A stretch of DNA of 64,000 nucleotides from Herbidospora daliensis (lineage in GTDB: Bacteria; Actinomycetota; Actinomycetes; Streptosporangiales; Streptosporangiaceae). The stretch covers positions 159,353-223,352 of the forward strand of contig NZ_BBXF01000003.1 of assembly GCF_001570585.1 (NCBI RefSeq), read 5' to 3'. How positions within the stretch are numbered: position 1 is the stretch's first letter; each line of letters starts with the position of its first letter. The translations under genes were made by a program, and so were the position numbers. The notes below the pieces were generated by a model. That model was not told where the DNA came from. It saw nothing but the letters and a program-made list of their open reading frames with translations, and did no database searches. Shown one piece after another: positions 32,866 to 47,661 of the stretch.

Positions 32866-34174
32866 TCCGCTCGGGCACCACTGCGGACAGGGGCGTCTCC
32901 GTCTCGTGGGGGACCTTCTTCACGCCCAGCACCGCGATCAGGCTGACCAGTCCCAGCCCAGCGATGAACAGCGCGACCGGGGTGGAGGAGCCGTTGGCGG
33001 CGTAGATGGCCGGGAAGGCGGGAGTGGCCGCGCCGGCCACGGTCGCGCCGATGGCGTAGGCGACCGAGATGCCGCTGTAGCGCACCTTCAGGTCGAACAG
33101 CTCGGTGAACAGGCCGCCCTGCGCGCCGGCCATGATGCCCTGGACGATTGCCGCGACCAGGAAGCTGACCAGCGCCAGGCCGGTCTCCCCGGTGTTGACG
33201 AGGGCGAACATCGGGACCGGCCAGATCACGGCGGTGATCGCGCCGATCACGTAGAGCGTCTTGGAGCCGAACCGGTCTGACAGGCGGGCCGACACGACGA
33301 TCGCCAGGATCCACACCGACGTGGAGGCGAGCACCAGCGTCAGCAGCGTGCCGCGCTCGAAGCCGGCCACCTGCGTGCCGTACGTCAGCATGTAGACGGT
33401 GACGGCGTACCCGACGGCGGGCGGGGCGATGGCGGCCAGACCGGCCAGAACGAGGTTGCGCGGGTGGCGCCGCAGCAGTTCCCTGAACGGCACCCGCTCC
33501 ACCGCCTTGGCCCGCTTGACCTTCGCGAACGCCTCCGGCTCCCGCAGCCGCATCCGGATCACGAAGCCGACCACGACCAGGACCGCCGAGAGCAGGAACG
33601 GGATACGCCAGCCGTAGGAGAAGAAGTCCTCGTCGGGCAGCCCGGCCACGGCCAGGAACGCCAGGTTCGACAGCAGCACCCCGACCGGCACGCCGAACTG
33701 CGCGAAGCTGCCGTAGAAGGCCCGGTTGCGCGGGCCGGCGTTCTCCGTGGAGATCAGCAGCGCGCCGCCCCACTCGCCGGCCACGCCGAAGCCCTGGATC
33801 ATGCGCAGCGCCACCAGCAGCAGCGGCGCCCCGAGGCCGATCGCCGCGTACGTCGGCAGGGTGCCGATCAGGAACGTCGCGCCGCCCGTCAGGATCAGGG
33901 TGAGCACCAGCATCGACTTGCGGCCGATGCGGTCGCCGAAGTGGCCGACCACGGCCGCGCCGATCGGGCGTACCAGGAAACCGACCGCGAACGCCGACAG
34001 GGAGGCCAGCGTGGCCGCCTCGGGCGAGGAGTCGGTGAAGAACAAGCGGGGGAAGACCAGCGCGGCGGCGGTGCCGAAGATGAAGTAGTCGTACCACTCG
34101 ATCGAGGTGCCGATGAAGCTGGCCGCGAAGACGCCCTTCATCGAGGTCGGTCTGGTCGTGCTGTGCTGGGCCAT
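32849..34174 (-). CDS. MHS-family MFS transporter
   Basis: 441 residues, 12 membrane helices. The metabolite:H+ symporter signatures are SFIGTSIEWYDYFIFGTAAA and GHFGDRIGRKSMLVLTLIL. Substrates in the family include shikimate, betaine, proline and aromatic acids. It is 12 nt downstream of the SDR gene, forming one unit with an IclR-type operator ahead, so import of the compound handled by that cluster is likely. Confidence 0.88.
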   Translation of the reverse strand: MAQHSTTRPTSMKGVFAASFIGTSIEWYDYFIFGTAAALVFPRLFFTDSSPEAATLASLSAFAVGFLVRPIGAAVVGHFGDRIGRKSMLVLTLILTGGATFLIGTLPTYAAIGLGAPLLLVALRMIQGFGVAGEWGGALLISTENAGPRNRAFYGSFAQFGVPVGVLLSNLAFLAVAGLPDEDFFSYGWRIPFLLSAVLVVVGFVIRMRLREPEAFAKVKRAKAVERVPFRELLRRHPRNLVLAGLAAIAPPAVGYAVTVYMLTYGTQVAGFERGTLLTLVLASTSVWILAIVVSARLSDRFGSKTLYVIGAITAVIWPVPMFALVNTGETGLALVSFLVAAIVQGIMAGAQGGLFTELFDLKVRYSGISVAYAIGATVAGAATPAFPAIYAANGSSTPVALFIAGLGLVSLIAVLGVKKVPHETETPLSAVVPERIKTTE

Positions 34175-34186
34175 TGGCGTCGCTCC

Positions 34187-35020
34187 TCAGGGCAGGGGGG
34201 TGGATGGCGCCGCGACCGGCGTGGCGCCGGAAGGTCCGCCGTCGACGGTGAGGGTGTGTCCGGAGATCCACCGGGCGCGGTCGCTGAGCAGGAAGAGCGC
34301 GGCCTGGGCGACGTCCCACGCGGTGCCCTCGGTACGCAGCCCGGTGGCCTCGCGGCGCGGCTCGCGGTGTTCCTCGGGCAGGTTCGCCGCGGCGAACGAC
34401 CCCCAGATCATGCCGACCCGGACGCAGTTGACCCGGATGCCGCGGGGGCCCAGCGTGGCGGCCGCCCCGTCGGTCAGGTTCTCCAGCCCGGCCTTGGCCA
34501 CGGAGTAGACCATCCCGGGACCCCGGGCGGCCACGGTGACCGAGGAGATGTTCACGATCGCGCCCCCGCGCGGCAGGAGCGGCACGGTGTGCCGCATGAC
34601 CTGCCACGCGGAGGTGAGGTTGACCGTCATCAACGCGGCGAACCGGTCGGGCGTCACGTCGAAGACCCCGTCCGGGTCACCGGCCGCGACGTTGTTGACG
34701 ACCGCGTCGAGCCCGCCCAGCCGCTCCCTCACGGCCGAGACGGCGTCGGCGACCTGCCGGTCGTCGGTGACGTCCGCGAGCACGGCCATGGCCTCGCCGC
34801 CGTCGCGGTCGATCAGCTTCACGGTGCGCGCGGCGGCCTCCGGATCACGGTCCAGGACCGCGACGCGCGCGCCGTGCCCGGCGAGCACCCGGGCCACGGC
34901 GTACCCCACGCCCGGCAGCGCGCCCTGCTGGCCCGCTCCGGTGACCAGGGCGGCCCGGCCGTCCATCCACCGCGCCCCTGAGCCGGTGAAGGGATCGTTC
35001 AGCGGATCGGCGTACGTCAA
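34187..35020 (-). CDS. SDR-family oxidoreductase
   Basis: 277 residues. Cofactor site LVTGAGQQGALPGVGYAVA has an insert within the usual TGxxxGxG. NNVA, the Ser in VNISSVTV and YSVAK (Tyr-x-x-x-Lys) form the rest of the active site. Residues 1-20 are an extra tail. It reduces or oxidises a secondary alcohol or ketone; substrate unknown. Divergent from the iclR gene. Confidence 0.88.
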   Translation of the reverse strand: MTYADPLNDPFTGSGARWMDGRAALVTGAGQQGALPGVGYAVARVLAGHGARVAVLDRDPEAAARTVKLIDRDGGEAMAVLADVTDDRQVADAVSAVRERLGGLDAVVNNVAAGDPDGVFDVTPDRFAALMTVNLTSAWQVMRHTVPLLPRGGAIVNISSVTVAARGPGMVYSVAKAGLENLTDGAAATLGPRGIRVNCVRVGMIWGSFAAANLPEEHREPRREATGLRTEGTAWDVAQAALFLLSDRARWISGHTLTVDGGPSGATPVAAPSTPLP

Positions 35021-35119
35021 CGGAAGCTCCTTTCCGGGAGGGAGGGCCGGCCTCCCCGCTGAGCCTCAGACGTCCGGCTGAGAACCGACTATGACGATCG
35101 GGCGGAGGGCGGTCGAGCC

Positions 35120-35140
35120 GACTTCCGCTGCGTGGAAGTC
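35120..35140. promoter_or_regulatory. IclR-type operator, copy 1
   Basis: GACTTCC (35120-35126) and GGAAGTC (35134-35140) are perfect 7-bp arms around GCTGCGT. It lies between the SDR and iclR genes. A similar 21-bp site at 37356 lies between the CoA ligase and alcohol dehydrogenase genes, so both pairs likely answer to one regulator. Confidence 0.65.
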
Positions 35141-35212
35141 CAGGTATTGCGAGCGGGTGTGTTTGGGTAGCCTCGGTCAACAGGCGCGTAACTTAGACGG
35201 ACAGGTGAGGAC

Positions 35213-36001
35213 ATGACCGTCCTGACGTCGGCGCAGCGGGTGCTCGCCATCCTGGGGGTCTTCGACACCGAGAACCTGGCGTTGTCCCTCAGCGAGATCA
35301 GCCGCCGGACCGGTTTCACGCTCAGCACCACCCACCGGCTGGTGAACGAACTGCGCTGCTGGGGCGCGCTGTCCCGGCACGCCGACGGCAAGTACACCAT
35401 CGGCCTGCGCATCCTCGAACTGGGCACCCTCGCGCCCCAGGGCGGCCAGCTCCGCGAGACCGCGCTGCCGTTCCTGCACGACCTCCAGCACGCCACCCAC
35501 GCCAACATCCACCTCGGGGTGCCCGAGGGCCACGACGTCATCTACGTCGAGTCGCTGCGGGCGCGCGACACCGTGCCGGTGCCGAGCCGCCTGGGCGGAC
35601 GCTGGCCCATGCACGCCACCGGGACCGGCCTGGTGCTGCTCGCACACTCCAGCCAGGAGTTCCAGGAGGAGGTGCTGGCGTCCGAACTGTGCGCGTACAC
35701 CGTCAACACGCTCACCGATCCCGACGCGCTGCGGCACTTCCTCGCCGAGGTGCGCAAGTCGGGCGTGGCGATCGTGGAGAGCCAGCTCACCTACGACGTG
35801 ATGGCGGTCGCGGTGCCGATCCGCGGGGCCCGTGACCGGGTCGTGGCCGCGGTCGGCATCACGCTGCCCAGCGGTTCGGCCTCGCCGCACTCCCTCGTGC
35901 CGGCGCTGACCACGACCGCCCGCGGCATCTCCCGGGCGCTGGGCGCGCCCTCGGCCGCGCACTTCGCGGCCCGCGAGGCCAGGCGCGCGCCGAACCGGTG
36001 A
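35213..36001 (+). CDS. IclR-family transcriptional regulator
   Basis: 262 residues. The N-terminal winged helix (about 1-65) includes SLSEISRRTGFTLSTTHRLV; the C-terminal GAF-like effector domain (about 75-245) binds a small molecule, often an aromatic acid. ATG with AGGTGAGG upstream. A palindrome lies 73 nt ahead. It probably controls the SDR-transporter unit and the ligase-dehydrogenase pair. Confidence 0.9.
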   Translation: MTVLTSAQRVLAILGVFDTENLALSLSEISRRTGFTLSTTHRLVNELRCWGALSRHADGKYTIGLRILELGTLAPQGGQLRETALPFLHDLQHATHANIHLGVPEGHDVIYVESLRARDTVPVPSRLGGRWPMHATGTGLVLLAHSSQEFQEEVLASELCAYTVNTLTDPDALRHFLAEVRKSGVAIVESQLTYDVMAVAVPIRGARDRVVAAVGITLPSGSASPHSLVPALTTTARGISRALGAPSAAHFAAREARRAPNR

Positions 36002-36004
36002 GCC

Positions 36005-37294
36005 TCAGCCGCCGATGCGGGTCAGGCGGGATTTCATCTCGGTACGCTCCAGCGAGCCCGGCGGCACCAGTTCGACCGAGGCCCGCACGCTCAGCCGCGC
36101 CCGGATCAGCTCCTCGATCTCCCGGCGCAGCACGTCGGGGTCGCCGGACGCCTCACCGAGCTCGGCCTCGACCCTGAGCGGCGGCTCCACCCTCGGCCCG
36201 GGACCGGGCAGCACGATCTGCACCACGCCGCTGGTGCGCGGATGCAACGTCTGCACGATGTCGCGGATCGCGGTCGGGAACACGTTCACGCCGAGCACGA
36301 TCAGCATGTCGTCGGTCCGCCCCACGCACCGGATCAGCGGCGCGCCGTCGGCGGCCCGGCCGGTCACCAGCACCCGGTCGCGGGTGCGGAAACGCACCAG
36401 CGGGCAGCATTCACGGTCGACCGACGTGTAGACCAGCTCCCCGGACGCCCCCGGCTCGGGGTCGACGGGCTCGCCGCTGTCGGGGTCGATCAGCTCGACC
36501 ACGACGTGCCGCCCGCCGGTGAAGCGCATGCCGCCCGCGCCGGGCGGCTCGGCGAACAGCACCGGCGCCATGTCGGCGTTGCCGAGCCCCTCGGTGACGC
36601 GCGCCCCCCACTCCCGCTCGATGTGCCGCTGGAACGCCGGCTCCCCGCCGCCCGGCTCGCCGCCCACGAACACCTTCCGCACGCCGAACCCGCGCGGGTC
36701 GCGCCCCTGCTCGCGCAGGTGCTCGCCCAGGTAGCGGATGTAGGACGGGGTCGCGTGCAGGGCGGTGACGCCGAGGGTCTCCAGGGCGAGCACGGCCCGC
36801 TGCGTGGCGCCGGTGCCGATGGGGACCAGCGTGCAGCCGATGCGTTCCAGCGCGTCGCGGATCGGCAGGCCGCCCACGAACAACGTCAGCCCCGCGCCGT
36901 GCAGCACGACGTCCTCGCGCCGGGCGCCCATCGTGACGAAGGCCCGCGCCGTCATCTCCGTCCACGCCTGGGAGTCACGCCTGGTCACGCCGACCCAGCT
37001 CGGGCGTCCGGTGGTGCCGGTGGAGGCGTGCACCCGGATCACCTCGACCATGTCGACACCCGCGTGGCGGCCCAGCGGCGGCGCCTCCGCCTGCGAGTCG
37101 CGCAGCGTCCGCTTGTCGGTGAACGGCAGTTTGCGCAGGTCGTCCAGGCTCACCAGCGTCGCGGGGTCGACTCCGTGCGCGGCGAACAGGTCGGCGTAGA
37201 ACGGCGAGCGCCGGGGCAGCCCCGCCAGGTGCGCGCGGAGCGTCGCGGTGACGGCGTCCCGGTCCTCGTCCGCGACGAAGCCAGTTGTGGTCAC
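36005..37294 (-). CDS. PaaK-like AMP-forming CoA ligase
   Basis: 429 residues of the phenylacetate-CoA ligase type. The nucleotide loop reads HASTGTTGRPSWVGVT; the hinge and C-terminal lid read VRFRTRDRVLV and GRTDDMLIVLGVNVFPTAI. It would activate an aromatic carboxylate with ATP and CoA. GTG at 37294 with GGAAGGA 8 nt upstream; an upstream in-frame ATG lacks this. Convergent with iclR (3-nt gap) and divergent from the alcohol dehydrogenase. Confidence 0.87.
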   Translation of the reverse strand: MTTTGFVADEDRDAVTATLRAHLAGLPRRSPFYADLFAAHGVDPATLVSLDDLRKLPFTDKRTLRDSQAEAPPLGRHAGVDMVEVIRVHASTGTTGRPSWVGVTRRDSQAWTEMTARAFVTMGARREDVVLHGAGLTLFVGGLPIRDALERIGCTLVPIGTGATQRAVLALETLGVTALHATPSYIRYLGEHLREQGRDPRGFGVRKVFVGGEPGGGEPAFQRHIEREWGARVTEGLGNADMAPVLFAEPPGAGGMRFTGGRHVVVELIDPDSGEPVDPEPGASGELVYTSVDRECCPLVRFRTRDRVLVTGRAADGAPLIRCVGRTDDMLIVLGVNVFPTAIRDIVQTLHPRTSGVVQIVLPGPGPRVEPPLRVEAELGEASGDPDVLRREIEELIRARLSVRASVELVPPGSLERTEMKSRLTRIGG

Positions 37295-37355
37295 GTGGGG
37301 GTCCTTCCAGGGAGGTGCACCCATGATGCCCAGCGGCCGCCGCGGCCCGCGATAC

Positions 37356-37376
37356 GACTTTCGCGTCGTGGAAGCC
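37356..37376. promoter_or_regulatory. IclR-type operator, copy 2
   Basis: GACTTTC (37356-37362) and GGAAGCC (37370-37376) around GCGTCGT. Arms are degenerate versions of copy 1 with the same 7-7-7 layout; 17 of 21 positions match. It lies in the 121-bp gap between the CoA ligase and alcohol dehydrogenase genes. Confidence 0.6.
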
Positions 37377-37415
37377 GCGTCGACTTCCCTTCCGGGGCTG
37401 CTCAGGCTGGCGGGT

Positions 37416-38510
37416 ATGGCAGACACAGTGCGCGCGGCCGTCCAGGCCGCCCCCGGCGTCATCGAGGTCCGCGAGTTCCCCCGGCCGGTCGTCGGGCCCG
37501 ACGACGGCCTGCTGCGGGTGGAGGCCAACGGCGTCTGCGGCAGCGACGTCGAGATCTACCGGGGCCATCTGCGCCCGATGGGGCAGGAGGGCGGCGGGCC
37601 GGTGCCGTTCGTGGCCGGGCACGAGGCGATGGGCGTCGTCGAGGAGATCGGCGACCGCGCCGCCGGACGCTGGGGCGTCAGGGCCGGCGACCGGGTGGCC
37701 GTGGAGATCATCGTGCCGTGCCACGCCTGCCGGAGGTGCCTGGCCGGCCATTACCAGTCGTGCCCGAACCGCAGGTACAACCACGGCGCCACCGGGATCG
37801 ACGTCGCGCCGTCGCTCTGGGGCGGCCTGGCCGAGTACATGTACCTGTCACCCGGCACGATCGTGCACCCGATCGACCCCGGGCTCCCGGCCGAGGTCGC
37901 CGCCCTGTTCAACCCGATGGGCGCGGGCGTGCGCTGGGCCTGCCACCTGGGCCGGGTGAGCCTGGGGGACACGGTCCTGGTCTTGGGCGCGGGCCAGCGC
38001 GGCCTGTGCTCGGTCATCGCCGCCCGCGCGGCCGGAGCGGGCCGCGTCATCGTCACCGGCCTGGCCGCCGACGCCCGCAAACTCGCCCTGGCCCGGGAGT
38101 TCGGCGCCGACCACACGATCGTCGCCGACGAGGAGGACACCGTCGCACGGGTGCGCGAGCTCACCGGCGGGGACCTGGCCGACGTCGTACTGGAACTGAC
38201 CCCGATGGCGGCCGAGCCGGTCACCGACGCGCTGCTGTCGGCCCGGCACGGCGGCCGGGTGGTGCTGGCCGGCCTCAAGGGCGACCGCGAGATCCCGCTC
38301 CGCACCGACGTCATCGTCAACCGCGCGCTCACCGTGGTCGGCGCTTACGGCGTCGACCACCGCGCCTACCGCGAGGCCATCGCCCTCATCGAGTCCCGCC
38401 GGTTCGCACTGGAGAAGCTCCACACGCACTCGTTCGGGCTGGAGGAGACGGTGAAGGCCATCGAGACGCTGGCCGGCGGGACGGCGATCCACGTCTCGGT
38501 GCACCCGTGA
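37416..38510 (+). CDS. Zinc-dependent alcohol dehydrogenase
   Basis: 364 residues, MDR superfamily. Catalytic zinc: CGSD and GHEAMG; structural zinc: CHACRRCLAGHYQSC (four Cys). NAD(P) fold near VLVLGAGQRGLCSVIAARAA. ATG at 37416 gives the normal family N-terminus. It may oxidise an alcohol linked to the CoA-ligase substrate. Ends 3 nt before the convergent hypothetical gene. Confidence 0.87.
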   Translation: MADTVRAAVQAAPGVIEVREFPRPVVGPDDGLLRVEANGVCGSDVEIYRGHLRPMGQEGGGPVPFVAGHEAMGVVEEIGDRAAGRWGVRAGDRVAVEIIVPCHACRRCLAGHYQSCPNRRYNHGATGIDVAPSLWGGLAEYMYLSPGTIVHPIDPGLPAEVAALFNPMGAGVRWACHLGRVSLGDTVLVLGAGQRGLCSVIAARAAGAGRVIVTGLAADARKLALAREFGADHTIVADEEDTVARVRELTGGDLADVVLELTPMAAEPVTDALLSARHGGRVVLAGLKGDREIPLRTDVIVNRALTVVGAYGVDHRAYREAIALIESRRFALEKLHTHSFGLEETVKAIETLAGGTAIHVSVHP

Positions 38511-38513
38511 ACC

Positions 38514-39425
38514 TCAGCCCTGCCAGGCCCGCTCGGCGTAGAGCACCCTGGCGGCCTCCATCGGTTCGGCTCCCCGCAGGTCGTACCAGTCGCCGTCGCG
38601 CCGCAGCACGGTCACCAGGGCGGTGACGAAGATCCGTCGGTTGACCACGTCGTGGGCGAGGACCTGGCGGTAGGCCGCCATCGCGCCCAGCGGCCCGTCG
38701 CCGTCGGCGTCGACCCACTGCCACACCCGGCAGGTGGTGCCCGGTTCGGCGTCCAGAGCGGGGGTGAACAGGTGGTTCCGCGAGCCGGTGGTGTGGGCCC
38801 GCTCGGGATTGAGCTCTTCGGCGATCCGGTGCCCGTCGGGCGAGGCCGGAACCACCTGCGGCAGCGGGTGGGGCCGCATCGCCGGCCATTCGGCGGCCTC
38901 CGAGACCGGGACGGGGAACGGCACCGGACCGGGGCCGGGATCGTCGATGCCGCTGCCGTCGGAGGTGTACGGCGCGGGGCGCAGATGCCGTCGCGGATCG
39001 TAGGCGTCGCGCACGGGCCAGAAGCGCAGCAGCCACTTCTCGCGACCGGTCCGCGACAGCAGGAGGTGCGCGTCCTTGGTGTAGACCTCCACCCGGTACT
39101 CGAACAGCGGCGGACCGATCAGGAACAGCGCCTCCTCCGCGCCGACCGGGTCGGGGAGCCGCACGATTCCGGTCTCCGTCTCCAGCGTCGCCGTGCCCAC
39201 CTGCTGCCAGGAGGGGTCGGCGGTGCCGGGTTCGGCGTTCCACGCCTCCAGCCGGACCGACGGCAGATGGTCGTCGTCGGAGCTGTGCACCCGCAGATGC
39301 CCGGCGCGCGCCTCGACCCGGCCGTGCCCCTCGCCGCCCGCCTCCCACTCCTCGCCGAAGACGAGCTCGAACCTCCGGTCGTAGACGTGCACCTCGGCGT
39401 CGAGGCTGCGCACCGCTCGCGCCAC
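38514..39425 (-). CDS. Protein of unknown function in the metF-like operon
   Basis: 303 residues, soluble, rich in Trp, Glu and Pro, without signal peptide, membrane segment or a motif I recognise. The last third (VTALVTVLRRDGDWYDLRGAEPM) looks like a beta-strand pair. GTG at 39425 with GGAGG upstream; 40 nt after the MTHFR-like gene, so probably cotranscribed with it and under the two-component site. A role in C1 or aromatic metabolism is an inference from position. Confidence 0.6.
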   Translation of the reverse strand: MARAVRSLDAEVHVYDRRFELVFGEEWEAGGEGHGRVEARAGHLRVHSSDDDHLPSVRLEAWNAEPGTADPSWQQVGTATLETETGIVRLPDPVGAEEALFLIGPPLFEYRVEVYTKDAHLLLSRTGREKWLLRFWPVRDAYDPRRHLRPAPYTSDGSGIDDPGPGPVPFPVPVSEAAEWPAMRPHPLPQVVPASPDGHRIAEELNPERAHTTGSRNHLFTPALDAEPGTTCRVWQWVDADGDGPLGAMAAYRQVLAHDVVNRRIFVTALVTVLRRDGDWYDLRGAEPMEAARVLYAERAWQG

Positions 39426-39465: not shown

Positions 39466-40260
39466 CTACCGTCCGGCTCCGACAGAATCGGGCTCCGGCA
39501 GTGAGCGGCGCCAGGCTTCGGTCTTCGCCAGTTCGTTGAACGTGAACAGGTGGAACCCGGCGATCAGGCCGCCGACGTGTGGTGCGAGCTGGGCGATCAG
39601 CCGGTTCGGGCGGTAGCCGGGCAGCAGGAGACGCCACGCCAGGTTCTGCTGTTTCCGCAGGAACCGGGCCGACCGGCCCAGGCCCAGCCCGGCCGAGATC
39701 CGGATCAGCTTCTGCCGCGTCACCGCCCCGGGCAGGCCCACGACGACCGGCAGGTGCACGTCCCGCGCCCACGCCAACGTCGTCCGGGCGTCGAAGCACA
39801 TCTGGGTGATCACGTGTGTCGCGTGCGGGGTCTTCAGCGCCAAGGCGCGGTCGATCAGTTCCCGATCGATCGTCCCGTGGCCTTCCGGGTAGCCGCCTAT
39901 CCCGACGCGACGGAAGTGGTGTCCCGTCTCCGCCAGCGCCTCCAGCAGGGAGAGCGCGTCAGGGAACCGGCCGGCGGGTTCGGGGGCGTCGCCGCCGATG
40001 ACGAAGACGCCGTCGACGCCGCCGTCCTTCAGGCGGGCCACGATGTCGGTCAATTCCTGTTCGTCGCGGACCAGGCGGGCCGCCAGGTGCGGGGAGACGG
40101 TGTAGCCGCTGCCCGTCAGCCGCACCGCCAGGTCGAGCGTGGGGCCGAGTCCCTTGGCCTCGGTCGCGGTCACCGTCAACGGCACCGCCGGGGGGACGTG
40201 CGTGAGGACCGACTCCTCCGCGTCCCGGAACGGGAGGATCTCGTAGCTGATGGCGTACAT
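39466..40260 (-). CDS. MTHFR-like (MetF-family) protein
   Basis: 264 residues, TIM-barrel related to 5,10-methylenetetrahydrofolate reductase (SYEILPFRD, VFVIGGDAPEP, VGIGGYPEGH, ITQMCFDARTT). It should use FAD and oxidise methyl-THF or methylene-THF carbon. Beside a LigM-like O-demethylase it parallels SYK-6 MetF, which returns methyl-THF to the C1 pool. ATG at 40260 with AGGAAGG upstream. A regulator site lies 90 nt upstream. Confidence 0.82.
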   Translation of the reverse strand: MYAISYEILPFRDAEESVLTHVPPAVPLTVTATEAKGLGPTLDLAVRLTGSGYTVSPHLAARLVRDEQELTDIVARLKDGGVDGVFVIGGDAPEPAGRFPDALSLLEALAETGHHFRRVGIGGYPEGHGTIDRELIDRALALKTPHATHVITQMCFDARTTLAWARDVHLPVVVGLPGAVTRQKLIRISAGLGLGRSARFLRKQQNLAWRLLLPGYRPNRLIAQLAPHVGGLIAGFHLFTFNELAKTEAWRRSLPEPDSVGAGR

Positions 40261-40349
40261 GGGAACCTTCCTGACGGAACGGCGGTTCCCTGCCGACGTT
40301 AGGGAGCGTGGCCGCGCCGGGAACGGCGCGGATGACGGCACTCGCGTGC

Positions 40350-40368: not shown

Positions 40369-40644
40369 CTACGCCTCCTGCGGGTGTGTGGCCAGCGGTT
40401 CCACCGTCACGTCCATCCACGGCCACTGCGGCAGCGAGGCCAGGGCGTCGTGCAGGGCGGTGGCGTCGGGGGCCTCCCACAGGCCGATCACGGCGCGTCG
40501 TCCGGGCACCCGCCACAGGCGTTTCAGGGCGCCCTCCTCGCGCAGTTCCAGGGCGCGGGCCCGTTCGGCCTGCTTCAGCCGGGTACGTTCGGCCTCGTCC
40601 ATGCCGTCGGGGAGCCGGGTCTCGAAGCGCACCAGGAATTCCAT
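40369..40644 (-). CDS. Muconolactone isomerase-family small protein
   Basis: 91 residues, matching the muconolactone Delta-isomerase (CatC) family across its length: start MEFLVRFETRLPDGMDEAE, middle LWRVPGRRAVIGLWEA, end LPQWPWMDVTVEPLATHP. No other beta-ketoadipate gene is nearby. In this gallate-type cluster it may isomerise or tautomerise an open-chain ring-fission product. ATG at 40644; a regulator site lies 39 nt upstream. Confidence 0.8.
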   Translation of the reverse strand: MEFLVRFETRLPDGMDEAERTRLKQAERARALELREEGALKRLWRVPGRRAVIGLWEAPDATALHDALASLPQWPWMDVTVEPLATHPQEA

Positions 40645-40696: not shown

Positions 40697-40732
40697 TGCC
40701 TGCCCCGGCGAAGCGCGGCATCATTGGGCGGT

Positions 40733-42229
40733 GTGGACGGCAGACCGGTTTTCGACGCGACCACGCTGCTGGAGCGCGTCCCCGACGGCGTCGCGGTCAT
40801 CGACGAGCGGGGCCGGTTCGTCCAGGCCAACCCGGCCGCCCGCACGCTCTGCGGCATCGCCGACCTGGTCGGGGCCGAGTCCCCCTTCCCCGCCGGGACG
40901 GACGACGGCGTGGTCGGATGGGGGGCGGGGCGCGAGTTCGCGTACCAGATGAGAGAACTGACCGGCCGGGAACGGCTGGTCGTCTTCCGCGACGTCACCG
41001 AGAGCCGCAGGCACCAGCGGCGGCTGGCGGCCATCGCCAGCGCCGCCGGACGGGTCGGCGGCGACCCCTCGCTGCGCAGCACCCTCGACGCGCTGGCCCG
41101 GGAGGTGCTGGAGGCCGACGCGCTGGCCAGCGTGCAGATCATGACGGTCAACGCGGCGGGCGCGCGGTTCCAGGTCATGGGCAGCGCCGGCTTCGCCTAC
41201 GCCGCCAACTTCTTCGACCTGCTGCTCGACTGCGCCGAGGCCGGGGCCGAGTTACGCATGATCGACGCCTTCACCTCGCGGCTGCCGGTCGTGGTGCCCG
41301 GCAGGTACGCGGCCGTGATGGCCGACCCGGCCTGGGAGCCGCTGCGCGAGCACATGCGCCAGCCCGAATGGGACTGGTTCGCCAGCGTGCCGCTGCTGGT
41401 GCGCGGAGAACCGGTCGGCATCCTCAACGCCTTCTACGCCCCCGGCCAGGAGATCAACGGCACCGCCCTGGACTTCCTGCTGGCGATGGCCGACCAGGCG
41501 GCGATGGCGGTGCACTACGCCGCGATGCTGGAGCGCGAACGCGAGGTGGCCCGCCGGGAGGAACGCCAGCGGCTGGCCCGCGACCTGCACGACTCCGTGG
41601 TGCAGCACGTGTTCTCGATGGGCATGCAGGCCGAGTCGCTCGGCATGACGTCGGGGCGCGGGCCCACGGTCGACTCCGGCTACGTGGTGCGGGTGGCGGG
41701 GGAGCTCGGGCAGATCTCCAAGGCGGTGCTCACCGACCTGCGCGTCATGGTGACCGACCTGCATCCGACCCCGTCGGCCGACCAGGGGCTGGCGGCGGCG
41801 CTGTTCCTGCTGGCCGAGTCGACGATGGGGCGTACCGGGCTGGAGGTCGCCGTCACCGTCGACGACCCTCGCCACGACCTCGACGACCTGGCGGCCGAGC
41901 TGCGCGAGGACGCCTACCGGGTGATCGCCGAGGCGCTGCACAACAGCGTCAAGCACTCCCGGGGCGGCCGGGTGACGATCACCGTCGGCCTGTCTGGGCG
42001 CGGCACCCGCAGGCTGCTGGTCTGCGAGGTCGCCGACGACGGACGCGGCCTGGACGCCGCGGCCGAGGGGGAGGGCGGCTTCGGCATGACCACCATGCGC
42101 GAACGCGCCGCCCGCTGGTCGGGACGGCTCACCATCGGCTCGGAACCCGGCGGGGGCACCTCCGTCCGGCTCGAACTCCCCCTCCCGGCCTCGCTGCCGG
42201 CCGAGATACCAGCGCTGAGGATCACATGA
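40733..42229 (+). CDS. PAS-GAF sensor histidine kinase (NarL-type)
   Basis: About 498 residues: PAS (about 8-90), GAF (about 105-260), HisKA_3 dimerisation with the phospho-acceptor His in RLARDLHDSVVQHV (about 286) and a C-terminal GHKL ATPase (VADDGRGLD, GFGMTTMRERA). No membrane helices, so it is a cytoplasmic sensor; the GAF domain could bind an aromatic acid. GTG at 40733 chosen; TTG at 40724 is possible. Overlaps the regulator gene by ATGA. Confidence 0.9.
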   Translation: MDGRPVFDATTLLERVPDGVAVIDERGRFVQANPAARTLCGIADLVGAESPFPAGTDDGVVGWGAGREFAYQMRELTGRERLVVFRDVTESRRHQRRLAAIASAAGRVGGDPSLRSTLDALAREVLEADALASVQIMTVNAAGARFQVMGSAGFAYAANFFDLLLDCAEAGAELRMIDAFTSRLPVVVPGRYAAVMADPAWEPLREHMRQPEWDWFASVPLLVRGEPVGILNAFYAPGQEINGTALDFLLAMADQAAMAVHYAAMLEREREVARREERQRLARDLHDSVVQHVFSMGMQAESLGMTSGRGPTVDSGYVVRVAGELGQISKAVLTDLRVMVTDLHPTPSADQGLAAALFLLAESTMGRTGLEVAVTVDDPRHDLDDLAAELREDAYRVIAEALHNSVKHSRGGRVTITVGLSGRGTRRLLVCEVADDGRGLDAAAEGEGGFGMTTMRERAARWSGRLTIGSEPGGGTSVRLELPLPASLPAEIPALRIT

Positions 42230-42888
42230 GCGAGACCATCGGGGTGCTGGTGGTCGACGACCACGCGGTCGTGCGCCGGGGAGTGGTCGCCTACCTGGAG
42301 GCCCTCGACAACGTCGAGGTCGCGGGGGAGGCCGCCAACGGGCGCGAGGCCCTCGACCTCCTGGAGTCGCTGAAGGTGCGCGGCCGGCCGCTGCCCGGGG
42401 TCGCGCTGATGGACCTGATGATGCCGAAGATGGACGGCGCCGAGGCCACCGCCGAGATCGCCCGGCGCTTCCCCGAGGTGCGCGTCGTCATCCTCACCAG
42501 CTTCGGCGAGGTCGAACGCGTCCAGGCCGCCCTGGAGAACGGCGCGGCCGGCTACCTCCTCAAGGACGCCGGGCCCTCCGAGGTGGCCGCCGCCATCTAC
42601 GCCGCCGCCAACGACGACGTCTTCCTCGACACCGCCGTGGCGCGGCGGCTGGCCCAGAAGATGCGCTCCCCGCAGTCGGGTGTGGCCGCGCTGACCAGCC
42701 GCGAACGCGACGTGCTCGTGCTGGTCGCCAAGGGGCGTTCCAACCGGGAGATCGCCGCCGAGCTGGTGATCAGCGAGCGCACCGCGCGCACCCACGTCAG
42801 CAACCTGCTGGGCAAACTCGGGCTGCGCTCGCGCACCCAGGCGGTCCTGGTGGCGATGCGCGAGGGACTGGTCGCCCCGCCGAGCTGA
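42226..42888 (+). CDS. NarL/LuxR-family response regulator
   Basis: 220 residues. The receiver domain (1-125) has acidic pocket VVDDH, phospho-acceptor Asp63 in LMDLMMPKMDG and Lys in LLKDAGP. The C-terminal LuxR HTH (about 155-212) contains LTSRERDVLVLVAKGRSNRE. Partner of the kinase encoded just upstream. It likely binds the ACGTAG-containing sites A-C that precede each unit of this cluster. Confidence 0.92.
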   Translation: MSETIGVLVVDDHAVVRRGVVAYLEALDNVEVAGEAANGREALDLLESLKVRGRPLPGVALMDLMMPKMDGAEATAEIARRFPEVRVVILTSFGEVERVQAALENGAAGYLLKDAGPSEVAAAIYAAANDDVFLDTAVARRLAQKMRSPQSGVAALTSRERDVLVLVAKGRSNREIAAELVISERTARTHVSNLLGKLGLRSRTQAVLVAMREGLVAPPS

Positions 42889-42964: not shown

Positions 42965-43696
42965 ATGAGCGAAACGCGGGCGTCGCGCTCCATCGTCGCC
43001 GTCACCGCCCACTCGGGCGACTTCGTCTGGAGGGCCGGCGGCGCGCTGGCGTTGTCGGCCGCGCGCGGCGACGCGGTGAAGGTGATCTGCCTCAGCTTCG
43101 GCGAACGCGGCGAGTCGCAGGGCCTGTGGGCGCGGCCCGGCATGGAGCTGGAGACGGTCAAGCGGGTGCGCCGCGAGGAGGCCGAGGCCGCCGCCGCGGC
43201 CCTCGGCGTCGCGGTCGACTTCTACGACCTGGGCGACTATCCGCTGGAGGTGCCGCGCGAGGCGCGCGAGCGCATCGTCGCCGACCTGCGGGCGGCCCGG
43301 CCCGACGTGCTGCTCACCCACGTCGCCGACGACCCGTACAACCGCGACCACAACGTCGCCCACGAGACCACGCTGACCACCCGGATGATCGCGCAGGCCA
43401 TGGGGCACGATCCGGCGACCACGCCCATCGGCGCGAGCCAGGTGCTCATGTTCGAGCCGCACCAGCCGGAGATGTGCGGCTTCCAGCCCAATCTGCTGCT
43501 GGACGTCACCCCGGTCTTCGACCGCAAGCGCAAGGCGATGGAGGCCATGTCCGCCCAGGGGCACCTCGTCGACTACTACACCGAGCTGGGCAGACGGCGC
43601 GGCGTGCAGGCCCGCCGCAACGGCGCCGCCGCCGACGTCGTCCACGCCGAGGCCTACCAGCGCGTCTTCCCCGTGGTCGGCGGTGAGCTGGTGTGA
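42965..43696 (+). CDS. galB: GalB-like 4-oxalomesaconate hydratase (LmbE/PIG-L family)
   Basis: 243 residues. The LmbE-type metal site reads AHSGDFVWRAGGALAL (family AHPDD with substitutions usual for the hydratase group) with a second His cluster in DPYNRDHNVAHE. CLSFGERGESQGLW resembles the P. putida GalB type. The reaction hydrates 4-oxalomesaconate to 4-carboxy-4-hydroxy-2-oxoadipate. First gene of a six-gene operon, overlapping the aldolase gene by 4 nt. Another deacetylase-like role is possible if context misleads. Confidence 0.8.
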   Translation: MSETRASRSIVAVTAHSGDFVWRAGGALALSAARGDAVKVICLSFGERGESQGLWARPGMELETVKRVRREEAEAAAAALGVAVDFYDLGDYPLEVPREARERIVADLRAARPDVLLTHVADDPYNRDHNVAHETTLTTRMIAQAMGHDPATTPIGASQVLMFEPHQPEMCGFQPNLLLDVTPVFDRKRKAMEAMSAQGHLVDYYTELGRRRGVQARRNGAAADVVHAEAYQRVFPVVGGELV

Positions 43697-44391
43697 ACCG
43701 GCACGTCATCGTCCGCACGAAGGCGCGCCCGGACGCCGCGGCCGTCAAGGTGCTCGCCGGGGCCGGAGTGGCCACCGTGCACGAGGCCATGGGCCGCCGG
43801 GGGCTGCTCGACCCGGTGCTGCGCCCGGTCTATCCCGGTACGCGCATCGCCGGCCGGGCCGTCACCGTGCTCAGCCACCCGGGCGACAACCTGATGATCC
43901 ACGCCGCGGTCGAGCAGTGCGGCGAGGGCGACGTCCTGGCCGTGGCCACCACCTCGCTCTCCCACGACGGCATGTTCGGCGAGCTGCTCGCCACGTCGCT
44001 CCAGGCCAGGGGGGTGGTCGGCCTGGTCATCGACGCGGGCGTGCGCGACGTCACCGAACTGACGGCGATGGCCTTCCCCGCCTGGGCGCGCGCCATCAGC
44101 GCGCAGGGCACCGTCAAGGCCACCGCCGGCTCGGTGAACGTGCCCGTCGTGCTCGGCGGCGCCTACATCCGCGCCGGGGACGTGATCGTGGCCGACGACG
44201 ACGGCGTGCTGGTCGTGCCCCGCGAGGACGCGCCGGCCGTCGCCGAAGCCGCCGCCACCCGCATGGCGGGCGAGGAGGGCAGACGCTCCCGATTCCGTGA
44301 GGGCGTGCTCGGTCTGGATTTGTACGGCCTGCGCGCCGACCTCGACCGTCTCGGGGTGCGCTACATCGACGCTGAAGGAGACCCGCAGTGA
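43693..44391 (+). CDS. ligK: LigK/GalC-like 4-carboxy-4-hydroxy-2-oxoadipate aldolase
   Basis: 232 residues of the RraA-like class II aldolase family: ATVHEAMGRRGLL, PGDNLMIHAAVEQCGEGDVL and GLVIDAGVRDVTEL (the Arg and Asp contact metal-bound substrate). It would cleave the hydratase product to pyruvate and oxaloacetate, closing the gallate/protocatechuate 4,5-pathway. GTG start; GTGA overlaps at both ends. Confidence 0.87.
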   Translation: MNRHVIVRTKARPDAAAVKVLAGAGVATVHEAMGRRGLLDPVLRPVYPGTRIAGRAVTVLSHPGDNLMIHAAVEQCGEGDVLAVATTSLSHDGMFGELLATSLQARGVVGLVIDAGVRDVTELTAMAFPAWARAISAQGTVKATAGSVNVPVVLGGAYIRAGDVIVADDDGVLVVPREDAPAVAEAAATRMAGEEGRRSRFREGVLGLDLYGLRADLDRLGVRYIDAEGDPQ

Positions 44392-45779
44392 GCAGCCTGG
44401 AAGACGTCCTGAACGATGCCGGGACCGGCGTCGCCGACCATCTCCGCAACCTGCCGACCGGGCCCAACGCCTACCCGGGCGTACCGCCGGAGTTCACCAA
44501 CTGGCGGGAGGAGCAGTGGGCCTGGCAGCACACGTGCGTGCTGTTCAACCAGTCGTTCCACATGGCGGAGCTGCTGGTGGAGGGCCCGGACGCGCTGAAG
44601 CTGCTGTCGCGCCTCGGGGTGAACAGCTTCGCGCGTTTCCCCGTGGACACCGCCAAGCAGTTCGTGCCGTGCACCCCCGACGGCTACGTCATCGGCGACG
44701 TCATCCTGTTCCACCTGGCCGAGAACACCTTCAACCTGGTCGGCCGCATCCCCGCGCTCAACTGGGTGACCTTCCACGCCGAGACCGGCGGCTTCGACGT
44801 CACGGTCACCCTCGACGAACGCTCGGCGGCCCGGCCCGACCCGTTCGACCGGGTGCACTACCGCTACCAGATCCAGGGCCCCCACGCCGCCCAGGTGATC
44901 GAGAAGGCCACCGGGGCGCCCGCGCCCGAACTGAAGTTCTTCCACATGACGTCCATGACCATCGCCGGCCGCCGGGTGCGCGCGCTGCGGCACGGTATGG
45001 CCGGTCAGCCCGGCTACGAGCTGTGGGGCCCGTGGGCGGAGGGCGAGGCCGTGCACGCGGCGCTGGTCGAGGCCGGCGCCGAATACGGCATGCGGCTGGT
45101 CGGCGGCCGGACCTACAGCTCCAACACCCTCGAATCGGGCTGGATCCCCTCGCCCCTCCCGGCCATCTACACCGGCGAGGCGCTCAAGAGCTACCGCCAG
45201 TGGTTGCCCGCCACGAGCTACGAGGCCAACGCCAGCATCGGCGGCAGCTTCGTCTCCGCCGACGTCGAGGACTACTACCTCACCCCGTGGGACCTCGGCT
45301 ACGGCCACATCGTCAAGTTCGACCACGACTTCGTCGGCCGCGAGGCCCTGGAGAAGCTGGCCGAACAGGAGCACCGCGTCAAGGTCACCCTGGCGCTCGA
45401 CACGGCGGCCTTCCTGCGCGCCATGGCCACCCAGCTGGAGCACGGCGACCCGGCCAAGTGGTTCGAGTTCCCCTCGGCGGTGTACGCCATGCACCCGTAC
45501 GACCAGGTGCTCGTCGACGGCGAACCGGCCGGCCTGTCGACCTGGATCGGCTACTCGTGGAACGAGCGCACCATGCTCACCCTGGCCATGGTCGACCCCG
45601 CGCACGCCGCGCCCGGCACCGAGGTCACCCTCGTCTGGGGCGAGCCCGGCGGCGGCAGCCGCAAGCTCACCGTCGAGCCGCACGCCCAGATCGAGGTGAC
45701 CGGCGTGGTCAGCCCGGTGCCGTACTCGGAGGTCGCCCGCCGGGCCTACGCCGACGGCGGCTGGCGGCGGGCCGGATGA
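44388..45779 (+). CDS. ligM: LigM-like tetrahydrofolate-dependent O-demethylase
   Basis: 463 residues with a GcvT (aminomethyltransferase) fold, near the 471 of Sphingobium LigM. His58, Arg120, Tyr243 and Trp252 fall within a few positions of active-site residues I recall for LigM, so transfer of an aromatic O-methyl to tetrahydrofolate is likely. Vanillate or 3-O-methylgallate are candidate substrates; a DmdA-type substrate is an alternative. Context with LigAB supports aromatics. Overlaps both neighbours by 4 nt. Confidence 0.83.
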   Translation: MSSLEDVLNDAGTGVADHLRNLPTGPNAYPGVPPEFTNWREEQWAWQHTCVLFNQSFHMAELLVEGPDALKLLSRLGVNSFARFPVDTAKQFVPCTPDGYVIGDVILFHLAENTFNLVGRIPALNWVTFHAETGGFDVTVTLDERSAARPDPFDRVHYRYQIQGPHAAQVIEKATGAPAPELKFFHMTSMTIAGRRVRALRHGMAGQPGYELWGPWAEGEAVHAALVEAGAEYGMRLVGGRTYSSNTLESGWIPSPLPAIYTGEALKSYRQWLPATSYEANASIGGSFVSADVEDYYLTPWDLGYGHIVKFDHDFVGREALEKLAEQEHRVKVTLALDTAAFLRAMATQLEHGDPAKWFEFPSAVYAMHPYDQVLVDGEPAGLSTWIGYSWNERTMLTLAMVDPAHAAPGTEVTLVWGEPGGGSRKLTVEPHAQIEVTGVVSPVPYSEVARRAYADGGWRRAG

Positions 45780-46111
45780 CCGAGATCCCGGAGACCCCCA
45801 TCCTCGACCGCGCCCACCAGCTGCGCGGCTACCGGATGAACAAGATGGCCATGGGCCTGAGCCGCCCCGAGGGCCGGGCGGCCTTCCTCGCCGACGAACG
45901 CGCCTACCTCGACCGCTTCGACCTCACCGAGGAGGAGATCACGGCCGTCATGTCCCGCGACTGGCGCACCATGATCGGCCTGGGCGGCAACCTGTTCCTC
46001 ATCCTCAAGATCTCCGCCGTCGACCCGGTGCGCATCACCGAGATCGGCGCCCACCAGGTCGGCATGGACCACGAGTCGTTCCTGCGGGACCGGCTCGGGA
46101 AGAAGGAGTAG
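45776..46111 (+). CDS. ligA: Extradiol 4,5-dioxygenase alpha subunit (LigA-like)
   Basis: 111 residues, LigA-type helical small subunit (AHQLRGYRMNKMAMGLSRPE, then DRFDLTEEEITAVMSRDW). It completes the active site of LigB and shapes substrate choice. ATG overlaps the O-demethylase stop; the LigB gene follows after 3 nt. Confidence 0.88.
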   Translation: MTEIPETPILDRAHQLRGYRMNKMAMGLSRPEGRAAFLADERAYLDRFDLTEEEITAVMSRDWRTMIGLGGNLFLILKISAVDPVRITEIGAHQVGMDHESFLRDRLGKKE

Positions 46112-46114
46112 ACG

Positions 46115-46957
46115 TTGGCCACGATCGTCGGCGGCCTGGGCACCTCACACGTCCCCTCGATCGGCGCCGCGCTGGACAAGGGCCTGCGCGACACCCCCGA
46201 GTGGAAGCCCTTCTTCGACGGCTACCTGCCGGCCCGGGAGTGGGTGCGCGAGCAGCGCCCCGACGTCGCGGTCGTCGTCTTCAACGACCACTTCAACGCC
46301 CTGTTCCTGGACCGGGTGCCCACCTTCGCGGTCGGCTGCGCGGCCGAGTACCACCCCGTCGACGAGGGCTGGGGCCCGCGCGCCATCCCGCCGTTCGCCG
46401 GCGCGGCCGACTTCTCCTGGCACCTGGTCGACCACCTCGTGGAGAACAGGTTCGACCCGGAGATCATCCAGGAGATCCGGGTCGACCACGGCCTCCAGGT
46501 GCCGATGGAGCTCTTCTGGGGCCGCCCGGCCGACGCCTGGCCGGTCAAGGTCGTGCCGATCTTCGTGAACGTGCTCCAGTACCCGATCCCGCTCCCGATC
46601 CGCCTGTACGAGCTCGGCCAGGCCCTCGGCCGCGCCATCGAGAGCTACGACGGCGACGAGAGGTTCGTCGTCCTGGGCACCGGCGGCCTGTCGCACCAGC
46701 TCCAGGGCAGCCGGGCCGGCTTCCTCAACCCGGCCGCCGACCGCCGGTTCCTGGTCGACATCGCCGAGAACCCGGCCGAGCTGGCGAGCTGGAGCCGCCA
46801 GAAGTACGTCGAGACCTTCGGCGGCGAAGGAGCGGAGGTCATCATGTGGCTCGTCATGCGGGGCGCGCTCACCCCCGAGGTCGTCGTCCGGCACCGGCAC
46901 TACTTCTCCCCGGCGTCGATGACCGGCGCGGGCATGATCGTGCTGGAGAACGCGTGA
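46115..46957 (+). CDS. ligB: Extradiol 4,5-dioxygenase beta subunit (LigB-like)
   Basis: 280 residues. His12 (LGTSHVPS), His59 (FNDHF) and Glu241 (GAEVIMW) match the iron ligands of LigAB (His12, His61, Glu242), and His194 (GLSHQLQG) the catalytic His195. It would open gallate, protocatechuate or 3-O-methylgallate between C4 and C5 with Fe(II) and O2. TTG start with GGAG upstream. With gallate as substrate, no LigC or LigI is needed, in line with their absence here. Confidence 0.9.
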   Translation: MATIVGGLGTSHVPSIGAALDKGLRDTPEWKPFFDGYLPAREWVREQRPDVAVVVFNDHFNALFLDRVPTFAVGCAAEYHPVDEGWGPRAIPPFAGAADFSWHLVDHLVENRFDPEIIQEIRVDHGLQVPMELFWGRPADAWPVKVVPIFVNVLQYPIPLPIRLYELGQALGRAIESYDGDERFVVLGTGGLSHQLQGSRAGFLNPAADRRFLVDIAENPAELASWSRQKYVETFGGEGAEVIMWLVMRGALTPEVVVRHRHYFSPASMTGAGMIVLENA

Positions 46958-47661
46958 CCGTCTTCGTACTCGTCCACGGCGCCTGGCACGGCGGCTGGGT
47001 CTGGCAGCGGGTCGCCCCGCTGCTGCGCGCCGCCGGGCACGAGACGCACACCCCCACCCTGACCGGCGTCAGCGACCGCGCCCACCTGCTGACCCCCTCG
47101 GTCGGCCTGTCCACCCACGTCGACGACGTCGTCGCCCTGATCGAGGCCTACGACCTCCGTGAGGTCGTCCTCGTCGGCCACAGCTACGCCGGCCAGGTCG
47201 TCACCGGCGTGGCCGACCGCGTCGCCGACCGGCTCGCCCGCCGCGTGCACCTCGACGCGTTCGTCGGCCGCGACGGCGAGGCGGCCATCGACCTGCTGCC
47301 CGCCACGATCGCCCACCACTACCGCGAGTCGGTGGCCGGCCCCGGATTCGGCTGGCTCATCCCGGTCCGCAGCCTGAGCGTGCTCGGCGTGACCGAGGAG
47401 AGCGACGTCGGCTGGCTCACCCCCCGCCTCACGCCGCACCCGTGGCTGACCTACACCGAGCCGCTGCGCCTGACCGGAAAAGGCGACCAGGTGCCCGCGA
47501 CGTTCATCGAGTGCGTCGGCTGGATGCGCGTCTTCACCCCCCAGGCCGAACGGGCCGCCACGCTGGGCTGGCCGGTGTTCGAACTGCAGACCGGTCACGA
47601 GGCGATGGTCACCGCGCCCGCGGACCTGGCCGAACTCCTCCTCCGCGTCGCCGCCGCCTGA
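46954..47661 (+). CDS. Alpha/beta hydrolase at the end of the ring-cleavage operon
   Basis: 235 residues of the plant-esterase/hydroxynitrile-lyase-like group: oxyanion LVHGAWHGGWVW, nucleophile elbow VGHSYAG, C-terminal His in LQTGHEAMV. It may hydrolyse a methyl ester, for example of the product formed by direct cleavage of 3-O-methylgallate, or an imported gallate ester. GTG overlaps the LigB stop by 4 nt. Followed by a GC-rich hairpin. Confidence 0.82.
   Translation: MTVFVLVHGAWHGGWVWQRVAPLLRAAGHETHTPTLTGVSDRAHLLTPSVGLSTHVDDVVALIEAYDLREVVLVGHSYAGQVVTGVADRVADRLARRVHLDAFVGRDGEAAIDLLPATIAHHYRESVAGPGFGWLIPVRSLSVLGVTEESDVGWLTPRLTPHPWLTYTEPLRLTGKGDQVPATFIECVGWMRVFTPQAERAATLGWPVFELQTGHEAMVTAPADLAELLLRVAAA

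Follow-up and report, generated by a model that had tools for sequence, protein, structure and literature searches.

A six-gene operon of the actinomycete Herbidospora daliensis, at 42965 to 47661 of the 64,000-nucleotide stretch of DNA analysed here (the window), probably degrades syringate by a linear route through 3-O-methylgallate (3MGA), as far as substrates and activities can be read from its sequence. This reading is carried by what we observe of the gene identities, their conserved linkage, the absence from the genome of the alternatives looked for and the evolutionary exchange of parts. Quite possibly, although we hold this more tentatively, the operon represents an actinobacterial linear syringate pathway with an SABP2-like methylesterase for the ring-cleavage product CHMOD, a CatC-family replacement for GalD/LigU, two-component control and exchangeable cassettes for cleavage and demethylation, the window's pair being of alphaproteobacterial type and the alphaproteobacteria using another hydrolase and a YCII-family protein. 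Hardwood lignin contains syringyl units as a main component, and to our knowledge little is known of their use by actinobacteria.

The window lies on contig 3 of a genome of 8.5 Mb in 18 contigs (listed completeness 99.99%). The operon encodes, in this order, GalB, LigK, a LigM/DesA-type demethylase, LigA, LigB and an alpha/beta hydrolase, with a 4-nucleotide overlap at four of the five junctions and a gap of 3 nucleotides between LigA and LigB, the compact layout that the original prediction had described. All six genes exceed Pfam cut-offs and four were upheld as such by a codon-position G+C screen; the LigA and hydrolase genes, each the end part of a longer mechanical frame, rest on family matches. 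The MetF-like gene that had been placed nearby is there, though divergent (Pfam MTHFR 25.6 bits, 24.2 in another scan, against a cut-off of 24), and three linked genes, for a kinase, a response regulator and a muconolactone-isomerase-family protein, had been left out. The features are:

39466..40341, minus strand: MetF-like, divergent methylenetetrahydrofolate reductase (Pfam MTHFR; start codon uncertain)
40369..40644, minus strand: CatC (muconolactone delta-isomerase) family protein of 91 amino acids (Pfam PF02426)
40724..42229, plus strand: sensor histidine kinase with PAS, GAF, HisKA_3 and HATPase domains (Pfam; start codon uncertain)
42226..42888, plus strand: response regulator with a LuxR-type DNA-binding domain (Pfam Response_reg, GerE; ATG start candidate)
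42965..43696, plus strand: GalB-type 4-carboxy-2-hydroxymuconate / 4-oxalomesaconate hydratase, PIG-L fold (Pfam PIG-L; 5cgz match)
43693..44391, plus strand: LigK/GalC-type 4-carboxy-4-hydroxy-2-oxoadipate aldolase (TIGR02798, NF006731; 3noj match)
44388..45779, plus strand: DesA-type tetrahydrofolate-dependent syringate O-demethylase (NF047633; tree)
45776..46111, plus strand: LigA-type small subunit of a ring-cleavage dioxygenase (Pfam LigA; 1b4u chain A)
46115..46957, plus strand: LigB-type catalytic subunit, proposed 3-O-methylgallate dioxygenase (Pfam LigB; tree, topology test)
46954..47661, plus strand: alpha/beta hydrolase, proposed CHMOD methylesterase (Pfam Abhydrolase_6; structure model)

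In the proposed scheme DesA would transfer one methyl group of syringate to tetrahydrofolate, giving 3MGA, and the MetF-like enzyme would help to recover the methyl. LigAB would cleave the ring of 3MGA directly to CHMOD, a methyl ester, which the alpha/beta hydrolase would hydrolyse to 4-carboxy-2-hydroxymuconate, the enol of 4-oxalomesaconate (OMA). The CatC-family protein would most likely isomerise this compound or stereoisomers, replacing GalD; GalB would hydrate it and LigK would then split the product into pyruvate and oxaloacetate. Three fates of 3MGA are described in PMC12314914: demethylation to gallate, cleavage to PDC, and cleavage to CHMOD, on which a hydrolase then acts. The gallate fate is disfavoured because it would need a further demethylation and GalD, and neither a second demethylase of the kinds looked for nor GalD was found in the genome, and the PDC fate because it would need LigI, none being seen in the frames scanned; the CHMOD fate is favoured because LigAB and the hydrolase, both in the operon, would suffice.

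The demethylase and the ring-cleavage dioxygenase

The demethylase is by predicted function a syringate O-demethylase, DesA. It passes the DesA model NF047633 with 851.6 bits (cut-off 800) and the LigM model with 629.3 (cut-off 580), such that its earlier description as LigM-like holds in so far as it passes the LigM cut-off, but it is nearer to DesA. In the demethylase tree it belongs to an eight-row clade (starred support 98) with Chelativorans and a Sphingobium plasmid copy, apart from the actinobacterial LigM; the tree contains no SYK-6 DesA, and the Chelativorans member scores 875.7 bits on the DesA model. Outside the six actinobacterial members, the window's included, the nearest kin in the tree are these two alphaproteobacterial copies. 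When the genome was searched for a second DesA/LigM homologue only a 28% match of GcvT size was obtained (8 of 14 first-look candidates were scored), and no VanA_C protein was found in it.

LigA and LigB together are, by family assignment, a two-subunit type II extradiol dioxygenase of the LigAB/MgaAB kind. LigA matches Pfam LigA (E 2e-26) and 1b4u chain A (E 1.6e-15), and LigB matches Pfam LigB (E 4.3e-60). The LigB iron ligands His12, Asn57, His59 and Glu241, together with the catalytic pair His125 and His194, align with DesB and show no variation across the 11 sequences compared; the position of DesB Thr13 is Val in the window's LigB. At the DesB Glu377' position an uncertain alignment gives Leu77 here, yet it gives Ser in LigA, contrary to the Phe reported for LigA at that position (PMC3962378). 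Of the two final enzymes, GalB is matched over residues 8-239 by 5cgz, a 4-oxalomesaconate hydratase of solved structure (E 1.4e-68), and LigK scores 306.1 bits on TIGR02798 (cut-off 304.5) and 336.5 on NF006731 (cut-off 179), with a match to 3noj at E 1.3e-71.

We compared the best 80 of 581 LigB matches, grouped by LigB identity and tree into 18 actinobacterial loci, 23 alphaproteobacterial ones belonging to the window's LigB clade and 39 others that mix several branches; the loci are related and hence dependent. Presence in these loci means a tblastn match to single query proteins above set bit scores (150 for the hydrolase), distances between genes were measured from alignment ends, and the trees are quick ones with SH-aLRT support only, that of the hydrolase having long outer branches. 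The LigB tree places the window and five relatives in one clade with the 23 alphaproteobacterial sequences (starred support 100), grouped with 14 of the 23 (support 94). Fifteen other actinobacterial LigB form a separate clade (starred support 100), three further ones from the phylum falling elsewhere, and an approximately unbiased test rejects joining the six with the fifteen (p 1.4e-81). Since the hydrolase stays in an actinobacterial clade while LigB sits with alphaproteobacteria, LigAB was exchanged and the hydrolase kept. DesA is by the same tree reasoning exchanged like LigAB, its nearest outside kin being alphaproteobacterial; the tree evidence for the exchange of LigAB carries no direction of transfer.

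The demethylase near actinobacterial LigAB also varies, being DesA, LigM or VanAB. DesA accompanies the hydrolase in L037 to L040 (L037 and L040 by score, L038 and L039 by tree), a LigM-type gene does so in L070, L078, L079, L082, L095 and L108 and, by tree, L092, and VanA with a reductase lies in the hydrolase locus of Streptomyces albicerus and, by similarity, in L077. We had considered the hydrolase as a marker of DesA alone, an idea dropped since LigM-type genes occur in hydrolase-bearing loci. Beside LigM in L078, L079, L080, L108 and L117 lies a second aminomethyltransferase on a starred branch of its own; the four scored (all but L117) reach 531-572 bits on the DesA model, below both cut-offs.

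The hydrolase, the CatC-family gene and the missing GalD

The alpha/beta hydrolase is proposed to be the CHMOD methylesterase. Its structure model (pLDDT 85.5) is nearest in fold to a Paenibacillus SABP2-like hydrolase (TM 0.86); the nearest folds include 6tj2 and a pyrethroid hydrolase, and the first six hold the methylesterase MES16 and the methylsalicylate esterase SABP2. In all 17 relatives compared, Ser77 and His215 are unchanged, which fits an alpha/beta hydrolase fold with a serine nucleophile and a histidine. A relative lies near LigAB in 15 of the 18 actinobacterial loci versus none of the 62 others, at 0-6082 nucleotides from ligAB and at less than 800 in 12 of the 15; the relatives in L058 (127 bits, 35%, 6 kb away) and L084 (46 bits) are below threshold and were not counted. 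Eighteen cluster-linked hydrolases form one actinobacterial clade (starred support 97), within which the window's groups with Streptomyces copies that accompany LigB of the other clade (support 84, unstarred). The hydrolase thus persists while the type of demethylase and the clade of LigAB change.

An even draw of 396 genomes across the phylum, the window's own included, gave LigB at E 1e-50 in four, the window's among them; 13 had a hydrolase relative at E 1e-40. In each of the three genomes whose hydrolase shows at least 52% identity (window, G291, G315) LigB lies no more than 8 kb away; G589, the remaining genome with LigB, is without such a hydrolase. The original prediction had called the operon notable for an actinomycete, which these counts uphold as to rarity; 18 of the 80 best LigB loci being actinobacterial, and published cases existing, tell against it. 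The loci of G291 and G315 (L119 and L120) hold the hydrolase, CatC-family gene, GalB, LigK and LigAB together, with no LigM/DesA homologue nearby, and L119 also a TRAP transporter; their hydrolases are more distant, falling outside the 18-member clade.

The CatC-family protein (PF02426, 110.9 bits against a cut-off of 26.7, E 3.3e-32) follows the same pattern. Its gene is present in 12 of the 18 actinobacterial LigB loci versus none of the 62 others, often adjoining the hydrolase; a Nitratireductor match has an unrelated gene context. The association of the two genes gives a Fisher p of 7.6e-12 over the 80 loci and 0.025 over the 18, values that are not true probabilities, the loci being related. 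PrpF/GalD gave no match in the window's genome. We also surveyed PrpF in 41 genomes that we chose from the 80 loci; with the window's genome, 16 of those examined bear the hydrolase (15 of the 41 and the window's). Eight of the 16 lack PrpF (window, L037, L040, L079, L082, L092, L094 and L095) and all eight have a clustered CatC-family gene. Both are present in five (L070, L072, L077, where the PrpF match covers 95 positions only, L078 and L108), and three have PrpF with no CatC-family gene in the locus: L038 (an 8.8-kb contig), L039 and L074 (a PrpF fragment of 84 positions). Both L038 and L039 have a second GalB/LigK pair, at about 5 kb from PrpF. Mutual exclusion of CatC-family gene and PrpF, which we had considered, was only partly upheld, five genomes having both. 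Among the three hydrolase-less actinobacterial genomes PrpF is missing from L080 and L110 and present in L071; 22 of the 23 others have it, so that the lack of PrpF partly follows phylum.

Since all eight PrpF-less hydrolase genomes carry it, the CatC-family protein is our best candidate for a tautomerase replacing GalD. Alternatively, because hydrolysis of CHMOD would already give the enol, the only form GalB accepts (PMC9942251), the isomerase may serve a stereoisomer, as supposed for MgaD.

In the alphaproteobacterial loci the slot before ligA holds a different hydrolase, 10-77 nucleotides upstream, in 21 of 23; it is missing in L050 (a 4-kb contig with a partial match) and L059. In Microvirga (L045), where its family was typed, this hydrolase is PcaD/MenH-like, under those models' cut-offs, with 25% identity to the window's over 183 amino acids; elsewhere it was assigned by similarity to the L045 copy. 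A small gene follows ligB in 19 of the 23, of the YCII family in all five genomes tested. The remaining 39 loci have an amidohydrolase relative in 23, an OMA-tautomerase relative in 19, the Microvirga-type hydrolase in two and the tested demethylases in two; relatives of the Microvirga amidohydrolase and of the OMA tautomerase are found in none of the 18 actinobacterial loci. We infer the Microvirga amidohydrolase to be LigI-like, its sole model match being 4-sulfomuconolactone hydrolase, under the cut-off. The slot for a CHMOD hydrolase seems to be filled by diverse hydrolases, because MgaC of Pseudomonas sp. NGC7, a hydrolase with a MenH domain by its description, shares 13% identity with DesC (PMC12314914). 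A search for an MgaC-like relative across 390 genomes of the Marinobacterium order gave matches in nine (36-43% identity), with LigAB in the 1.5-kb flanks of none of the 11 loci.

Weighing the alternatives

The original prediction had held that 3MGA is demethylated to gallate and then cleaved. Tetrahydrofolate-kind O-demethylation, extradiol cleavage and an ending by GalB and LigK stand; the gallate step does not, given that the demethylase is nearest to DesA, that a second demethylase of the kinds looked for (8 of 14 first-look DesA/LigM candidates scored) and PrpF were not found in the genome, and that the hydrolase would be left jobless. We consider it unlikely that LigAB cleaves gallate to OMA for GalB and LigK to finish, with the hydrolase a bystander or a feeder of esters. 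The score of DesA above the LigM cut-off (629.3 vs 580), the acceptance of several substrates by LigAB-type enzymes (PMC8091115) and the pairing of LigM with LigAB in some actinobacterial relatives speak for such a route, but the demethylase is nearer DesA in both score and tree and the genome yielded no other demethylase of the LigM or VanA kind. Furthermore, OMA is the product of gallate cleavage and GalB accepts the enol form alone (PMC9942251), yet no GalD/PrpF was found; the Val at the position of DesB Thr13 might point the same way (a residue comparison on an unsure alignment), and the linkage of the hydrolase would go unexplained.

Less likely still, the hydrolase might act upstream, hydrolysing methyl or other esters of syringate or gallate, with LigAB cleaving the resulting catechol. 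That enzymes of aromatic esters, SABP2 and the pyrethroid hydrolase, are among the nearest folds would suit this, but the hydrolase is kept beside ligAB without any tested demethylase nearby in L074 and L094, and another hydrolase occupies the same ligA-adjacent slot in the alphaproteobacterial loci (21 of 23). An operon for protocatechuate 4,5-cleavage, that is for vanillate, we regard as very improbable despite the homology of LigA and LigB to protocatechuate 4,5-dioxygenase: the demethylase is DesA, and LigI-like relatives are found in none of the 18 actinobacterial loci and in 7 of 23 in the window's own LigB clade. LigC and LigI, whose lack the original prediction had pointed out, indeed turned up in none of the neighbouring frames that were scanned, which are part of those from 32.8 to 58.2 kb, the whole genome not having been searched for either.

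Several observations weigh against the linear route by way of CHMOD, which we nonetheless prefer. Presence calls from single queries can miss diverged genes. DesA passes the LigM cut-off too, and so might demethylate 3MGA. In actinobacteria the hydrolase often accompanies LigM and is no marker of DesA. It was not found in 3 of the 18 actinobacterial loci (L071, L080, L110) nor, beyond these 18, in L030, L031 and L123; in L040 it lies 6 kb away, and L026, which is closely related and carries DesA, LigAB and the isomerase, has no hydrolase match in 19 kb. The hydrolase and the LigI-like gene occur together in seven of the 23 alphaproteobacterial loci, every one of them Microvirga. Finally, deletion of galD abolishes growth of NGC7 on syringate (PMC12314914), so that here some putative substitute must stand in for PrpF. 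We note separately that L026 has a dihydroxy-acid dehydratase and an FAD oxidoreductase in place of the hydrolase.

Regulation, neighbouring genes and known systems

The two-component system at 40724-42888 is likely the switch of the operon. The response regulator overlaps the kinase stop by 4 nucleotides and ends 76 nucleotides before the operon; kinase relatives occur in 13 and response-regulator relatives in 12 of the 18 actinobacterial loci, and both in none of the 62 others. Regulators of syringate or gallate genes named in the literature include MarR-type DesR, and also VanR2 and LysR-type GalR, these two from PMC12314914 and PMC9942251. The MetF-like gene is found in 12 of the 18 actinobacterial LigB loci versus 2 of the 62 others, and a full-length MetF is present elsewhere in the genome; the MetF-like enzyme would re-oxidise the methyl-tetrahydrofolate left by DesA. 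On the Rhodococcus opacus plasmid NZ_CP082159 (L117), at 2368-24924, a LigM-type gene lies with pabB, folP, folE, MTHFR, purU, folD, fdhD and an FdhF-type oxidoreductase, perhaps a self-supplied methyl-to-CO2 module.

Further out, 32849-38510 encodes an MFS transporter, an SDR, an IclR regulator (nearest to the PcaR/PobR model), an AMP-dependent ligase and a zinc alcohol dehydrogenase, a set that may feed other aromatics into the pathway. Four of the five genes are kept in L037, on the opposite side of its operon, and three in L023, whose sequence ends at the IclR gene. A 303-residue frame with no family match (38514-39425) separates the MetF-like gene from the alcohol dehydrogenase; in L023, of the same genus, the matches to these two are about 20 nucleotides apart, so that the window has an extra stretch there. 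The LacI-type regulator 3' of the operon and the farther glucuronate isomerase, ABC transporter and MLE-type enzyme were excluded from it.

Among known systems, Pseudomonas sp. NGC7 (vanA1B1, mgaABCD, galBCD; PMC12314914) shares with the scheme proposed here direct two-subunit LigAB-type cleavage of 3MGA, an alpha/beta hydrolase for CHMOD, GalB and GalC. Unlike the window it has a VanAB demethylase, the SnoaL-like MgaD, an essential GalD, VanR2, GalR and a MenH-domain hydrolase; the window has DesA, the CatC-family protein, the two-component system and an SABP2-like hydrolase, and no GalD (the NGC7 hydrolase is compared by description). Novosphingobium aromaticivorans and Sphingobium SYK-6 (DesA, LigM, LigAB, DesZ, DesB, DesC/D) share DesA, which converts syringate to 3MGA in SYK-6 and Novosphingobium (PMC12314914), and LigAB, and in N. 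aromaticivorans ring opening of 3MGA to CHMOD is the major route (PMC8091115); they have several branches, LigM, LigI and scattered genes, in contrast to the one short, branchless operon of the window. A Novosphingobium plasmid region has two GST-like genes behind LigM. The gal operon of Pseudomonas putida KT2440 (GalA, GalB, GalC, GalD) shares GalB- and GalC-type enzymes, but has a one-chain GalA and GalD, whereas the window has separate LigA and LigB, no GalD in the genome, and the demethylase and hydrolase inside the operon. The plasmid NZ_CP082159, of Rhodococcus opacus DSM 44186, carries LigA, LigB, the hydrolase (77%), the CatC-family gene, kinase, regulator, GalB, LigK and MTHFR; unlike the window it has a LigM-type gene, 89.5% to that of Lentzea, and a second aminomethyltransferase, its LigB falls in the actinobacterial clade (52%), and genes of folate and one-carbon metabolism are present as well.

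Complete syringate pathways have been predicted by BLAST in some Actinomycetes among vanA1B1-bearing strains (PMC12314914), DesA-like enzymes are reported from actinobacterial metagenome-assembled genomes (PMC9296663), and PMC9942251 refers to a gallate cluster in Rhodococcus opacus PD630. In the accessible portions of the open-licence literature we found nothing on the hydrolase, the CatC-family gene, the two-component system or the exchange of LigAB. The chemistry of the pathway is known; what is new is most likely the mosaic of alphaproteobacterial-type enzymes and enzymes so far seen in actinobacteria only.

If our reading is true, one short operon would take syringate all the way to pyruvate and oxaloacetate by a linear route, with no branches to PDC or gallate. 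It would be a handy cassette for lignin conversion, and loss of the hydrolase should yield the polymer precursor PDC; deletion of MgaC in NGC7 gave 95% PDC from syringate (PMC12314914). These loci would also represent a natural experiment: for each of ring cleavage, demethylation, ester hydrolysis and isomerisation, different proteins fill the role.

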